The notes under the pieces: model-generated
What the model saw: only the letters and a program-made list of their open reading frames with translations
The model's database searches: none
Told to the model about the DNA's origin: nothing
Shown: positions 1,584 to 5,128 of the stretch, in pieces
Position numbering within the stretch: position 1 is the stretch's first letter
Layout: each line of letters opens with the position of its first letter
Position numbers and translations under genes: made by a program
Source: a bacterium
GTDB lineage: Bacteria; UBP7; UBA6624
Length of the DNA: 5,287 nt
Assembly (NCBI GenBank): GCA_014384545.1
Contig: JACNFQ010000098.1
Location: 1-5,287, forward strand
Direction: 5' to 3'

Positions 1584-2167
1584 TGTTTACGGGAATCGTG
1601 GCAGGAGTAGGAGTCGTTGAAGAGGTGACTTCTGTTGAATTAGGGAAGAGGATAGGAGTCGACTTTAGGGGCTTTCCATCTCCCCGGATTGGTGGTTCAG
1701 TCGCTTTGGATGGCTGTTGCCTAACGCTAGAGAAAGCCGAAGGAGATACAGCCTTCTTCTTCCTGTCAAGTACGACTCTCAAAAAAACGACTTGGGGGAA
1801 TAAGGACTTGGTGGGAAGAAGGGTAAATCTCGAGGCTCCCTTGGAGATGGGACAGCCTCTTGGGGGGCATTGGGTATTGGGGCATGTGGATGGTGTCGCT
1901 GATGTGCTCTCATTAGTTGCGACTGAAGGAGGAGGAGCCCTCCTGACCCTAGCTCTTCCTCCCACTCTGATACCCTTCGCTCCTCCAAGAGGGTCTATCG
2001 CGGTCAATGGCATCAGTTTGACGGTAGCTTCAGCCCAAGATGGAGTGATCGATGTCGCTTTGATTCCTGAGACCTTAGAACGGACCGCCATACAATCCTC
2101 AGTGATGGGTTCGAAAGTAAATCTAGAAGTCGATGTCTTGGCTCGGTATGGAAGAGGCGAATGGTGA
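1583..2167 (+). CDS. ribE: Riboflavin synthase (alpha-type, two lumazine-binding barrels)
   Basis: Catalyses the last step: dismutation of two 6,7-dimethyl-8-ribityllumazine molecules to riboflavin and the diaminouracil, normally as a homotrimer. Barrel 1 has the canonical MFTGIV N-terminus (the Phe2 tail is required in the family), GCCLT (44-48), VNLEAPL (81-87) and GGHWVLGHVDG (94-104). Barrel 2 has IAVNGISLTV (139-148), IPETLERT (161-168) and VNLEVDVLARY (179-189). Length is 194 residues, at the short end of the family's usual ~195-215 with almost no C-terminal tail. I chose ATG 1583 rather than the in-frame TTG at 1580 because it gives the invariant MFTGIV. This start shares one base with the ribD stop (TGATG), and GAGGG at 1569-1573 is a plausible ribosome-binding site. 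An A7 tract lies at 1781-1787. The gene is called ribC in enterobacterial nomenclature. Confidence 0.95.
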   Translation: MFTGIVAGVGVVEEVTSVELGKRIGVDFRGFPSPRIGGSVALDGCCLTLEKAEGDTAFFFLSSTTLKKTTWGNKDLVGRRVNLEAPLEMGQPLGGHWVLGHVDGVADVLSLVATEGGGALLTLALPPTLIPFAPPRGSIAVNGISLTVASAQDGVIDVALIPETLERTAIQSSVMGSKVNLEVDVLARYGRGEW

Positions 2168-3213
2168 GCCACGAGAGGAGTGTGAAGAACGCTGTTCGAG
2201 CGATTCAAGATGGCCGCATCGTCGTTGTGGTGGATGATGAGAATCGTGAAAACGAAGGGGACCTTGTCTGTGCGGCTGTCCATGCCACACCCGAAAATGT
2301 CAATTTCATGATCAAAGAAGCCCGTGGGCTTCTCTGTGTCCCGATGCTTGCTGAACGGCTAGATGCTCTGGGAATACCCCAGATGGGTCGTCGGAATATG
2401 GACCCTCTTGGGACTGCCTTTACTGTTTCAGTGGACGGTGTTGAGGGAATTACTACGGGAATCAGTGCTAGAGAGAGGTCTAGGACGATACTAAAGTTGG
2501 TTGATCCATCTGCCCAAGTAAGGGATTTGCGGCAGCCAGGGCATGTCTTTCCTCTCCGAGCTGACAAGGGAGGTGTCTTAGCTCGAGCAGGGCATACAGA
2601 GGCCTCGATTGATCTTTGCGATCTGGCAGGGCTTCCTCAAGCTGCAGTCATTTGCGAGGTCCTAAGAGATGATGGCGAGATGATGCGGATGAAAGGCTTG
2701 AAAGAGTTTGCCAAAACCCACCAACTTCCTCTCCTTACCATTGCCGACCTCATTGAACATCTCTTGGTCAACCGACCAACCATTCACCTCCACCACGAAG
2801 CCAAAATGGAAGGGGCAATGATGCGTGTTTTGCTCTTTTCCGACTACACGGGAGCGACACATACTGCATTTGTAGCGGGCAATCCCCAACCAAACTCCCC
2901 CTGTCTCGTTCGGGTTCATTCAGAGAGGAGTAGCCAGGACGATTCTGATAGAGACAGCCGCCTTCAACAAGGGATTGACAGGATTGCTGCGGAAGGGGAG
3001 GGAGTCGTTGTGCTCTTGGGGATGAACCATCCATTGGCACAAAATGGAGGGGAGAATAAGATGGACTTTAGGGCTTATGGACTGGGAGCACAGATTTTGC
3101 GAGGGTGTGGTGTAGGGAAGATGCGCGTCCTGACGAATAACGCTAGAAACATTGTGGCTTTAGAGGGTTTTGGGTTAGAGATTGTAGAGACCCTACCTAT
3201 GGACCACCTATGA
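2161..3213 (+). CDS. ribBA: RibBA-type fusion: intact DHBP synthase with a degenerate, probably inactive GTP cyclohydrolase II domain (RibBX-like)
   Basis: The N-terminal RibB domain (about 1-203) converts ribulose 5-phosphate to 3,4-dihydroxy-2-butanone 4-phosphate plus formate. It retains DDENRENEGD (25-34, acidic metal/substrate loop), TTGISA (98-103), RQPGHVFPLRA, RAGHTEA (142-148) and ICEVLRDDGEM (164-174). The C-terminal part (about 208-350) is recognisably GTP cyclohydrolase II by its RVHSE start, the GAQIL segment, VLTNNARN and LEGFGLEIVETLP. However, HSEC reads HSER, the CDC zinc cysteines are absent, and the EGRGIGL catalytic stretch is replaced by LAQNGGEN. The segment between the latter and GAQIL is also largely deleted, leaving ~140 residues instead of ~190. 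GTP hydrolysis is therefore not expected. ATG 2161 overlaps ribE by 7 bases; GTG 2164 (overlap GTGA, 6 bases after GAAGAGG at 2151-2157) is an equally good start. ATG is kept here for a two-state call. The frame is intact, so this is divergence, not a frameshift. Confidence 0.9.
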   Translation: MVSHERSVKNAVRAIQDGRIVVVVDDENRENEGDLVCAAVHATPENVNFMIKEARGLLCVPMLAERLDALGIPQMGRRNMDPLGTAFTVSVDGVEGITTGISARERSRTILKLVDPSAQVRDLRQPGHVFPLRADKGGVLARAGHTEASIDLCDLAGLPQAAVICEVLRDDGEMMRMKGLKEFAKTHQLPLLTIADLIEHLLVNRPTIHLHHEAKMEGAMMRVLLFSDYTGATHTAFVAGNPQPNSPCLVRVHSERSSQDDSDRDSRLQQGIDRIAAEGEGVVVLLGMNHPLAQNGGENKMDFRAYGLGAQILRGCGVGKMRVLTNNARNIVALEGFGLEIVETLPMDHL

Positions 3214-3617
3214 AAGTCCTCATCATTCAGGCACGCTTCAACCATACGATTACGAACCGTCTTCTGATGGGTGCAGAGGGAGTTCTCACCGCAAATGGGG
3301 CAGAATGGTCTGTGCGAGAAGTCCCAGGCGTGTGGGAGATTCCTGCTGCAGTGGCCTCTGCGTTGAATGAGGATGTGCCACCTGAGGGTATCGTGGTGTT
3401 AGGTGCGGTGATTCAAGGAGAGACAGACCACCATATCCATCTGGCTTCTTCGGTATTTGGGGCATTGGCTCAAGTTCAGGTCGCAGAGAATGTGCCCGTG
3501 GGATTGGGTATCTTGACAGTAGAAAACCAAGAGCAGGCAAAGGAACGGGTGGGGGGGAAGAAGGGCAATAAGGGAGCAGAGGCTGCCCTAGCGGTGGTGG
3601 AGATGGTGGGTGGGTAG
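3210..3617 (+). CDS. ribH: 6,7-dimethyl-8-ribityllumazine synthase
   Basis: Condenses 5-amino-6-ribitylaminouracil with DHBP to the lumazine substrate of RibE; family members form pentamers or 60-mer capsids. Visible motifs are ARFNHTIT (8-15), VPGVWEIP (38-45), VVLGAVIQGETDHH (62-75), ILTVENQEQAKERVG (101-115) and GNKGAEAA (119-126). His74 falls at the family's catalytic histidine, and Arg113 at the phosphate-binding arginine. Oddities: the common IRGxTxHF/Y block reads IQGETDHH, so the Arg is Gln and the aromatic residue after His is His. The protein is also only 135 residues, about 15-20 short at the N-terminus, where the strand that links subunits usually lies. The ATG shares ATGA with the ribBA stop, with no obvious Shine-Dalgarno, implying translational coupling. 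A G7 tract lies at 3551-3557 in the QAKERVGGKK region. Confidence 0.93.
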   Translation: MKVLIIQARFNHTITNRLLMGAEGVLTANGAEWSVREVPGVWEIPAAVASALNEDVPPEGIVVLGAVIQGETDHHIHLASSVFGALAQVQVAENVPVGLGILTVENQEQAKERVGGKKGNKGAEAALAVVEMVGG

Positions 3618-4624
3618 TGTCACACACTCTACTTGACCAGCGAAAAGAGAGGGAAGTAGGCGCTCCGGAACAGATAGTCCTCCACTCATTACAAGAGAAT
3701 GTGGGGAAGTTTGTTAGTGGGACCTCTTTAGCAAGAAAAGTCTCTGCATCACGAACGGGGGTCTGGAACATTGTCCAGTACTTGATTGATTTGGGCTATG
3801 GGATTGAAGCAAGAACGAAACGAGGGTATAGACTGGTTTCGGCTAGGAATCGGTTGACCCCCCCCGAACTGTGGGGTTATCTCCCCCTCTTTTTTTCGCG
3901 TTCAGTCCATTGTTTCAACACCTTGACTTCTACCCATGAATTGGCGCGCCGTTTGGCTCTAGAGGGTGCACCGGAGGGCACCCTTGTCATCGCCGAATAC
4001 CAATCTCAAGGTAAGGGTAGGTCCGGACGAGTATGGCACGCACCTTTGGGGCACTCCTTACTTCTCTCCGTACTCGTTGATTTCCCTGAGGGGTTTCCTC
4101 TCCATCAACTCCCCATCACGCTTGCCCTAGCCTCTCAACGGGCTACAGGATTATCTCTAGCTTGGCCCAATGATTTGGTTGTTGGGAAGAAGAAAGCGGG
4201 GGGAGTTCTCCTCACATTACTTTCGGGCGAGAGATCCTCCAAAGTCATATTCAGTTTGGGATTGAATGTCTGGGGCGACCCTAATGATTATCCGATGGGG
4301 CTTACTGGAAAGGTCGAAACGATGGAGCATGCCGGACTGGTGGACGGTGATTCACGCGTGCGCCCTCACCTTCTAGGGAAGTGGTGTAATGCTCTTTTGG
4401 AGACCCTATCCGAACTAGAGGACAACCCCAAAGCCCAGCTAAAAGCATGGCAGGACGCTTTGGTGGGGCGTGGTGAAAAGGTGCGCTGGATAGAGCAAGA
4501 CGGAGAGCGGAGAGAAGGGCTGTTTTTGGGAGGAGATGAAGGGGGAAAGGGGAAGGTGGATGTAGATGGAGAAATCGTATCCTTATCGGCAGTTGAGACA
4601 CCTCTATTCGTCAGAGTCGGCTAG
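3617..4624 (+). CDS. birA: Bifunctional biotin-[acetyl-CoA-carboxylase] ligase / biotin operon repressor BirA
   Basis: Activates biotin with ATP and attaches it to the lysine of biotin carrier proteins. The full-length form also represses biotin genes. Residues ~18-75 form the winged HTH: ILHSLQEN-type helix, SGTSLARKVSASRTGVWNIV (34-53) and the wing YGIEARTKRGYRL. The catalytic core (~95-265) has LTSTHELA (103-110) in place of the usual DSTN, and the biotinyl-AMP loop QGKGRSGRVW (131-140, commonly GRGRRGRxW). It also has AWPNDLV (182-188), the catalytic-lysine segment GKKKAGGVLL (190-199) and SLGLNV (213-218). The C-terminal SH3-like BPL_C domain spans ~283-335 (GEKVRW, GLFLGGDEGG, VDGEIVSL). 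Length of 335 is normal for Group II BirA. GTG 3617 shares one base with the ribH stop (TAGTG); G-rich sequence upstream may serve as ribosome-binding site. Last gene of the rib unit; no terminator is visible after it. A C8 tract (3858-3865) and a T7 tract (3890-3896) lie in the linker. Confidence 0.93.
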   Translation: MSHTLLDQRKEREVGAPEQIVLHSLQENVGKFVSGTSLARKVSASRTGVWNIVQYLIDLGYGIEARTKRGYRLVSARNRLTPPELWGYLPLFFSRSVHCFNTLTSTHELARRLALEGAPEGTLVIAEYQSQGKGRSGRVWHAPLGHSLLLSVLVDFPEGFPLHQLPITLALASQRATGLSLAWPNDLVVGKKKAGGVLLTLLSGERSSKVIFSLGLNVWGDPNDYPMGLTGKVETMEHAGLVDGDSRVRPHLLGKWCNALLETLSELEDNPKAQLKAWQDALVGRGEKVRWIEQDGERREGLFLGGDEGGKGKVDVDGEIVSLSAVETPLFVRVG

Positions 4625-4638: not shown

Positions 4639-4646
4639 AAGGTTTT

Positions 4647-4720
4647 GGGCCATTAGCTCAGTTGGCTAGAGCGCGCCCCTGATAAGGGCGAGGTCCGTGG
4701 TTCGAATCCACGATGGCCCA
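4647..4720 (+). tRNA. tRNA-Ile, anticodon GAT
   Basis: A 74-base cloverleaf reads directly. The acceptor GGGCCAT (4647-4653) pairs perfectly with ATGGCCC (4713-4719), with discriminator A at 4720. The D stem is GCTC/GAGC. The anticodon stem CGCCC/GGGCG encloses the loop CTGATAA, with GAT at 4681-4683. The T arm contains GGTTCGAATCC. The 3' CCA is not encoded (TAT follows), so it must be added by nucleotidyltransferase. The gene lies 22 bases after birA in the same orientation. It is not next to an rRNA gene here, although Ile(GAT) genes often sit in rRNA spacers. Confidence 0.97.
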
Positions 4721-4755
4721 TATCCCAAGAACACGTTAGGTCGGGGGTTGTGGCT

Positions 4756-5040
4756 CTCCGACGCATGGGGCAAGGCGTGGAAGCCTTGCAAGTGGTGGTC
4801 GCCCTAAAGACCTCCGTCCCTTATGTCCACACCCCCAACATGTGGCGACCCGTGGAAGCCTTGCCCTAAAGTAATGGTCGCCCTAAAGACCTTCGTCCCT
4901 TATGTCCACACCCCAACATGTGGCGACCCGTGGAAGCCTTGCCCTAAAGTAATGGTCGCCCTAAAGACCTTCGTCCCTTATGTCCACGCCCCGACATGTG
5001 GCGACCCGTGGAAGCCTTGCAAGTGGTGGTCGCCCTAAAG
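4756..5040. repeat. Tandem intergenic repeat array: three ~78-bp units, dyad-containing, between two convergent tRNA genes
   Basis: Units starting with GGTCGCCCTAAAG lie at 4797-4875 (79 bp), 4876-4953 (78 bp) and 4954-5027 (74 bp). A partial 13-base copy ends the array at 5028-5040. Units 1 and 2 differ by one substitution and one extra C; unit 3 has two A-to-G changes and a shorter end. The array can also be read as four 'R' segments (4776-4809, 4851-4888, 4929-4966, 5007-5040; 34, 38, 38, 34 bp) separated by three 'S' segments of 41, 40 and 40 bp. In each unit GGTCGCC pairs with GGCGACC about 40 bases later, and CCACA with TGTGG across an 8-9-base loop. The stretch 4756-4775 resembles a decayed end of S (CCGAC...ATG...GGC). 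Lengths are not a common multiple of three, and no coding is supported. Apart from this array and the hairpin at 4771-4788, I see nothing in the 4721-5054 gap. Confidence 0.93.
4771..4788 (+). other. Perfect hairpin at the left border of the repeat array
   Basis: CAAGGC (4771-4776) and GCCTTG (4783-4788) are exact complements around the loop GTGGAA. It is the first stable stem after tRNA-Ile, 51 bases past its 3' end. The following bases are CAAGTGG rather than a T-run, so it is at best a weak terminator. In the internal repeat copies the left arm reads GACC instead, so only this border copy can form the stem. Confidence 0.4.
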
Positions 5041-5054
5041 GGTTGGGTTTCGCC

Positions 5055-5128
5055 TCGGGGAGGCGGGGTTCGAACCCGCGACCTCCTGCTCCCAAAGCAG
5101 GCGCGCTACCAGGCTGCGCTACTCCCCG
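5055..5128 (-). tRNA. tRNA-Pro, anticodon TGG
   Basis: On the minus strand a 74-base cloverleaf starts with CGGGGAG (genomic 5128-5122), which pairs perfectly with CTCCCCG, followed by discriminator A at 5055. The C1-G72 pair is typical of bacterial tRNA-Pro. D stem GCGC/GCGC, anticodon stem CCTGC/GCAGG with loop TTTGGGA (anticodon TGG), and T stem GCGGG/CCCGC around TTCGAAC are all intact. No CCA is encoded (GGC follows). The gene begins nine bases after the stop codon of the DAHP synthase gene on the same strand, so it may be processed from a shared transcript. Its 3' trailer (GAGGCG, genomic 5051-5056 overlap) can pair with CGCCTC of the tRNA's own 3' half. Confidence 0.97.

Follow-up and report, generated by a model that had tools for sequence, protein, structure and literature searches.

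The riboflavin operon and its ribBX-like gene

The window, by which we mean the whole 5,287-nt stretch of DNA analysed, carries a riboflavin operon with all of its genes on the + strand, and the ribBX-like gene lies inside this operon. The genes, and the parts of the ribBX-like gene, are:

558–1583, + strand: ribD, bifunctional deaminase/reductase (TIGR00326, 273 bits, cut-off 156)
1583–2167, + strand: riboflavin synthase, ribE/ribC (PRK09289, 170.6 bits, cut-off 155)
2161–3213, + strand: ribBX-like gene, 350 residues, an open reading frame with matches to PF00926 and PF00925 (structural model at pLDDT 85, top structural match 6MNZ)
2161–2775, + strand: 3,4-dihydroxy-2-butanone 4-phosphate (DHBP) synthase (RibB) half, residues 1–205 (NCBI ribB equivalog domain, 236.6 bits, cut-off 177.45; invariant residues)
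2815–3198, + strand: degenerate GTP cyclohydrolase II (RibA-like) half (PF00925, 83.6 bits in the whole-genome search; 2BZ0 fold, Z 16.3)
2911–2928, + strand: RVHSE (residues 251–255) kept, followed by Arg256 where E. coli RibA has C54, the first zinc cysteine, from the alignment
3019–3057, + strand: short linker GMNHPLAQNGGEN at the place of the EGRGIGL-to-LGF catalytic segment, from the alignment (pLDDT <50 at residues 295–300)
3064–3072, + strand: Asp302 and Arg304, kept, aligning with Asp126 and Arg128 of E. coli RibA
3133–3150, + strand: TNN kept (Thr149), with Asn330 replacing Lys154, from the alignment
3210–3617, + strand: ribH, lumazine synthase (TIGR00114, 111 bits, cut-off 84.6)
3617–4624, + strand: birA-like biotin ligase with an HTH domain (PF03099 and PF08279), the same neighbour as at the related locus L041

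Only three genomes are available for the phylum: that of the window (G000; 79% complete, in 107 contigs), G001 (86% complete) and G002 (62% complete). The order ribD-ribE-ribBX-ribH-birA was established from Pfam matches in G000 and G001 and from the translated sequences in G002. In G001 and G002 the operon is preceded by pheT, whose place at L041 is occupied in the window by a fragment (207–545, + strand) with weak likeness to the FDX-ACB end of PheT. No FMN riboswitch was found in the window or in the three genomes. Downstream of birA are genes for tRNA-Ile (GAT; 4646–4721, + strand) and, in the opposite orientation, tRNA-Pro (TGG; 5055–5128, – strand). Between them, at 4754–5040, lie tandem 78-nt direct repeats, of which two copies (4833–4910 and 4911–4988) are 99% identical, with a diverged copy before them and a partial copy after.

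The N-terminal half of the ribBX-like protein matches DHBP_synthase (PF00926) over residues 10–200 with 275 bits, passes the NCBI ribB model and has whole RibB catalytic motifs, DDENRENEGDL (residues 25–35) and AGHTEASIDL (residues 143–152). These features suggest that it is a working DHBP synthase.

Losses and retentions in the RibA-like half

A preliminary description of this DNA had placed a degenerate GTP cyclohydrolase II half at 2782–3213. The degenerate half is real, but base 2782 falls in the interdomain linker, and residue 219 (base 2815) is where the Pfam match starts. GTP_cyclohydro2 (PF00925) matches residues 219–346 with 90 bits only, and the score on the NCBI ribA equivalog model, 46.5 bits, is far under the cut-off of 205.85. 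We aligned this half with an E. coli RibA sequence, which agrees with the stretches of 2BZ0 available for comparison, and with intact RibBA proteins. The alignment bears out the proposed reduction of HSEC...CDC to HSER with no downstream cysteines: C54, C65 and C67 are replaced by Arg256, Ser and Arg, leaving none of the three zinc cysteines, and the RibA zinc site CX2GX7CXC is absent. The C...CDC motif is present in all 39 intact RibBA proteins compared. The EGRGIGL segment was likewise described correctly as gone, along with tens of residues before GAQIL; the missing stretch, QEGR(G/N)IGL...LGF, amounts to about 28–35 residues and includes E92-G93-R94 and the ring-opening Tyr105. The C-terminal tail is also gone, Q70 is altered and K154 is Asn.

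Other parts of the domain are preserved. The motifs RVHSE (251–255), DFR (302–304), GAQIL (309–313), TNN (325–327) and LEGFGLEI (334–341) are kept, in agreement with the earlier remark that flanking fold motifs survive in an open reading frame. We checked 18 positions, which we take to be the zinc, GTP-contact and catalytic residues of E. coli RibA. Eight of them are kept (R49-V-H-S-E53, D126, R128 and T149 in E. coli numbering), slightly more than the 2–7 kept by the other degenerate proteins checked. According to a review (PMC10366380), losing any one zinc cysteine ends GTP cyclohydrolase II activity; ring opening requires zinc, pyrophosphate release does not, and for the latter Arg128 touches the alpha phosphate. 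Read against these roles, the loss of the zinc and ring-opening residues and the retention of Arg128 suggest that the ring-opening side of the site has gone while the phosphate side is partly kept. From the alignment, GTP cyclohydrolase II catalysis has probably been lost in this half, and because RVHSE, Asp126, Arg128 and Thr149 are kept, it may retain some GTP binding or pyrophosphate release.

The full-length model is closest to Acinetobacter baumannii RibBX (6MNZ; Z 33.5, 317 residues aligned, rmsd 3.0), as expected of the RibBX-like protein that had been proposed, and is about equally close to Mycobacterium tuberculosis RibA2 (4I14; Z 33.1). Residues 206–350 match E. coli GTP cyclohydrolase II (2BZ0) with the Z score listed above, and 2BZ0 is also the first match when the C-terminal half is predicted alone. 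The replacement for the catalytic segment is modelled at low confidence. In the predicted structure, the RibA-like half keeps the fold of GTP cyclohydrolase II; a shared fold does not show function.

The same degenerate domain, with the same losses and open frames, is found at L041 and L042 in G001 and G002, which belong to another genus of the same family. Comparison of G001 with G002 gives dN 0.009 and dS 0.444 for the RibA-like half (dN/dS about 0.02), as low as for the RibB half (dN 0.014, dS 0.581). The RibA-like half is under strong purifying selection, as the preliminary description had supposed. Identity between the window and G001 is 66.5% in the RibB half and 45.4% in the RibA-like half. 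Because the losses are shared by relatives with open frames and the dN/dS ratio is so low, neither a sequencing or assembly error, which had been named as grounds for doubting the deletion, nor pseudogene decay accounts for the domain, and both were ruled out.

Selection of this strength also bears on whether the RibA-like domain could still act as a GTP cyclohydrolase by an altered mechanism. It is the sole RibA homologue found, and RVHSE, Asp126, Arg128 and Thr149 are kept under purifying selection. The domain, however, has none of the zinc ligands and lacks the EGR/Tyr105 segment, and there is no obvious replacement metal site because C316 is the only cysteine of this half conserved across the lineage. 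We consider an active domain improbable.

Relation to known bipartite proteins

RibBX proteins are already known, and the protein of the window is a variant of the RibBX type. Like the proteins of Shewanella, Aeromonas and Acinetobacter (6MNZ), it combines a whole RibB half with a RibA-like half that lacks the zinc ligands and ring-opening residues, its gene lies in a rib operon, and 6MNZ is its best structural match. It differs from them in keeping RVHSE and the Asp126/Arg128 pair, in having no companion ribA found in the three genomes (62–86% complete), and in forming a separate branch in the tree of RibB halves. Its catalytic segment is deleted, whereas in several other RibBX-type proteins an unrelated sequence takes its place. 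The X domain of the Shewanella protein is reported to regulate the RibB domain (PMC10012899).

Other bipartite proteins resemble it in part. The short RibBA of Campylobacter (L039; compare PRK09314) is of similar length and also has the catalytic segment deleted, but it keeps two of the 18 checked residues against eight in the window, and in the RibB-half tree it sits outside the window clade, joined to other sequences at support 86. Bifunctional RibBA from M. tuberculosis (Rv1415, 4I14) shares the two-domain order and overall fold, with the difference that the window protein is without the zinc site and active-site segment. In Arabidopsis, DHBP synthase is the activity left to RIBA2, which has lost GTP cyclohydrolase II; in RIBA3 it is DHBP synthase that is lost and GTP cyclohydrolase II that remains (PMC3509567). 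The preliminary description, which named RIBA3 as a comparable loss, had the two reversed. RIBA2 is, by its description, like the window protein in being bipartite with GTP cyclohydrolase II lost and DHBP synthase kept, but it is a plant protein from a genome that also has the bifunctional RIBA1.

In the RibB-half tree, the window clade falls in a group (support 100) with Campylobacter, Clostridium, Companilactobacillus and others. No degenerate protein adjoins the window clade, and degenerate copies are scattered over several places in the tree, in which some branches are moderately supported. This scatter favours repeated, independent loss, and the loss of GTP cyclohydrolase II features in the window protein looks, and probably is, independent of the other degenerate forms sampled.

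Source of the first pathway intermediate

If the RibA-like half is inactive, the first step of the pathway would be carried out elsewhere. The preliminary description placed the first enzyme at another locus, a reasonable expectation, yet a search of G000, G001 and G002 turned up no second ribA: in these genomes (62–86% complete) PF00925 matched only the degenerate domain. Neither GTP cyclohydrolase III (PF05165) nor a creatininase-type formamidase (PF02633) was found in the three genomes, and FolE (PF01227) gave nothing over the cut-off in the lineage genomes searched, with one weak match in G001. FolE2 (PF02649) is present in one copy each in G000 and G001, and we set it aside as the missing first enzyme because its usual role is in folate and queuosine synthesis. 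The rest of the riboflavin pathway is kept in all three genomes despite there being no recognised first enzyme.

In Aeromonas, a separate ribA supplies the first step, and its deletion causes auxotrophy even though ribBX is present (PMC10012899). Degenerate and intact copies also coexist in two other genomes (G010 and G043). An ordinary separate ribA could likewise exist in the lineage of the window and be missing from the incomplete assemblies. Consistent with such gaps, the ribF matches of G000 are two part-length pieces on two contigs, and the completeness of the three genomes leaves room for a missed gene. The chance that all three genomes miss an ordinary ribA is about 1% if losses are independent, and losses in binned genomes need not be. 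That PF00925 finds only the degenerate domain in each of them also argues against a missed gene, as does the occurrence elsewhere of more complete genomes with only a RibBX-type match. We regard a missed ribA as somewhat unlikely.

These other genomes come from a survey of 290 genomes, selected for at least 90% completeness, in which seven with a weak best PF00925 match were inspected. In at least four (G129, G133, G258 and G270), the sole PF00925 match, among the matches listed, is without the zinc site. Genomes with only a RibBX-type match reach 93–99% completeness, with G129 at 99%, and G258 has a whole ribD-ribE-ribBX-ribH operon. Creatininase-family genes are present in G133 and G258 and none were found in G129 or G270. 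The several such genes in G133 and G258 (L065–L071) may include BrbF-type formamidases. The complete 2.7-Mb genome G252 was dropped as a RibBX case: its only PF00925 match, L061, is weak but keeps the cysteines and resembles the UTP-cyclohydrolase type. In G090, the RibBA-like L063 keeps the C...CDC motif and has lost the EGR segment, and a separate RibA-like L059 is encoded in the same genome.

BrbF formamidase has been shown in Sinorhizobium and Brucella, and for BrbF-containing bacteria, Sinorhizobium among them, a GTP cyclohydrolase still to be discovered has been proposed to feed it (PMC9478397). In the lineage of the window, too, the first step could be supplied by a GTP cyclohydrolase that is unrecognised and non-homologous. 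This possibility fits a pathway whose remainder is whole and conserved in genomes where GTP cyclohydrolase II and III and the creatininase-type formamidase were not found, and there is the precedent of the postulated enzyme. No candidate gene has emerged, however, and the genomes are incomplete, so that we advance it only tentatively.

Both a missed ribA and a non-homologous enzyme are compatible with what we consider the likely explanation, that this is a RibBX-type protein with a working RibB half and a RibA remnant kept as a structural or regulatory domain, the first step coming from another protein. The N-terminal half would make dihydroxybutanone phosphate, the protein's only product. The C-terminal half would be a former GTP cyclohydrolase II in which the fold and some of the phosphate-binding side survive; being predicted unable to bind zinc or open the purine ring, it would be retained as a structural or regulatory domain that probably tunes RibB or holds it in a complex. 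The first step would most likely be done by another protein, either an unrecognised enzyme or the product of a ribA missing from the incomplete assemblies. Counting against this explanation, the failure to find a second GTP cyclohydrolase II takes away what usually makes a loss of activity in this domain affordable. The small genomes and absent first enzyme might instead reflect a lineage that no longer makes riboflavin from GTP and takes up riboflavin or an intermediate, the operon being a remnant or working on imported precursors. The other pathway genes are whole, however, their order is conserved over two genera and the dN/dS of the fused gene is very low, making uptake an unlikely account.

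What would be new is a deep lineage with a conserved riboflavin operon in which no RibA homologue was found apart from a RibBX-type protein. It is conceivable that this lineage and several other RibBX-only lineages use a non-homologous GTP cyclohydrolase and that the dead RibA half of RibBX has been kept as a partner or regulator, although we think this less likely than not. The source of the first intermediate in this lineage is a more interesting question than the protein itself, and the RibBX-type genomes without a recognisable RibA, including the near-complete G129, form a defined set for a co-occurrence hunt for the first enzyme.
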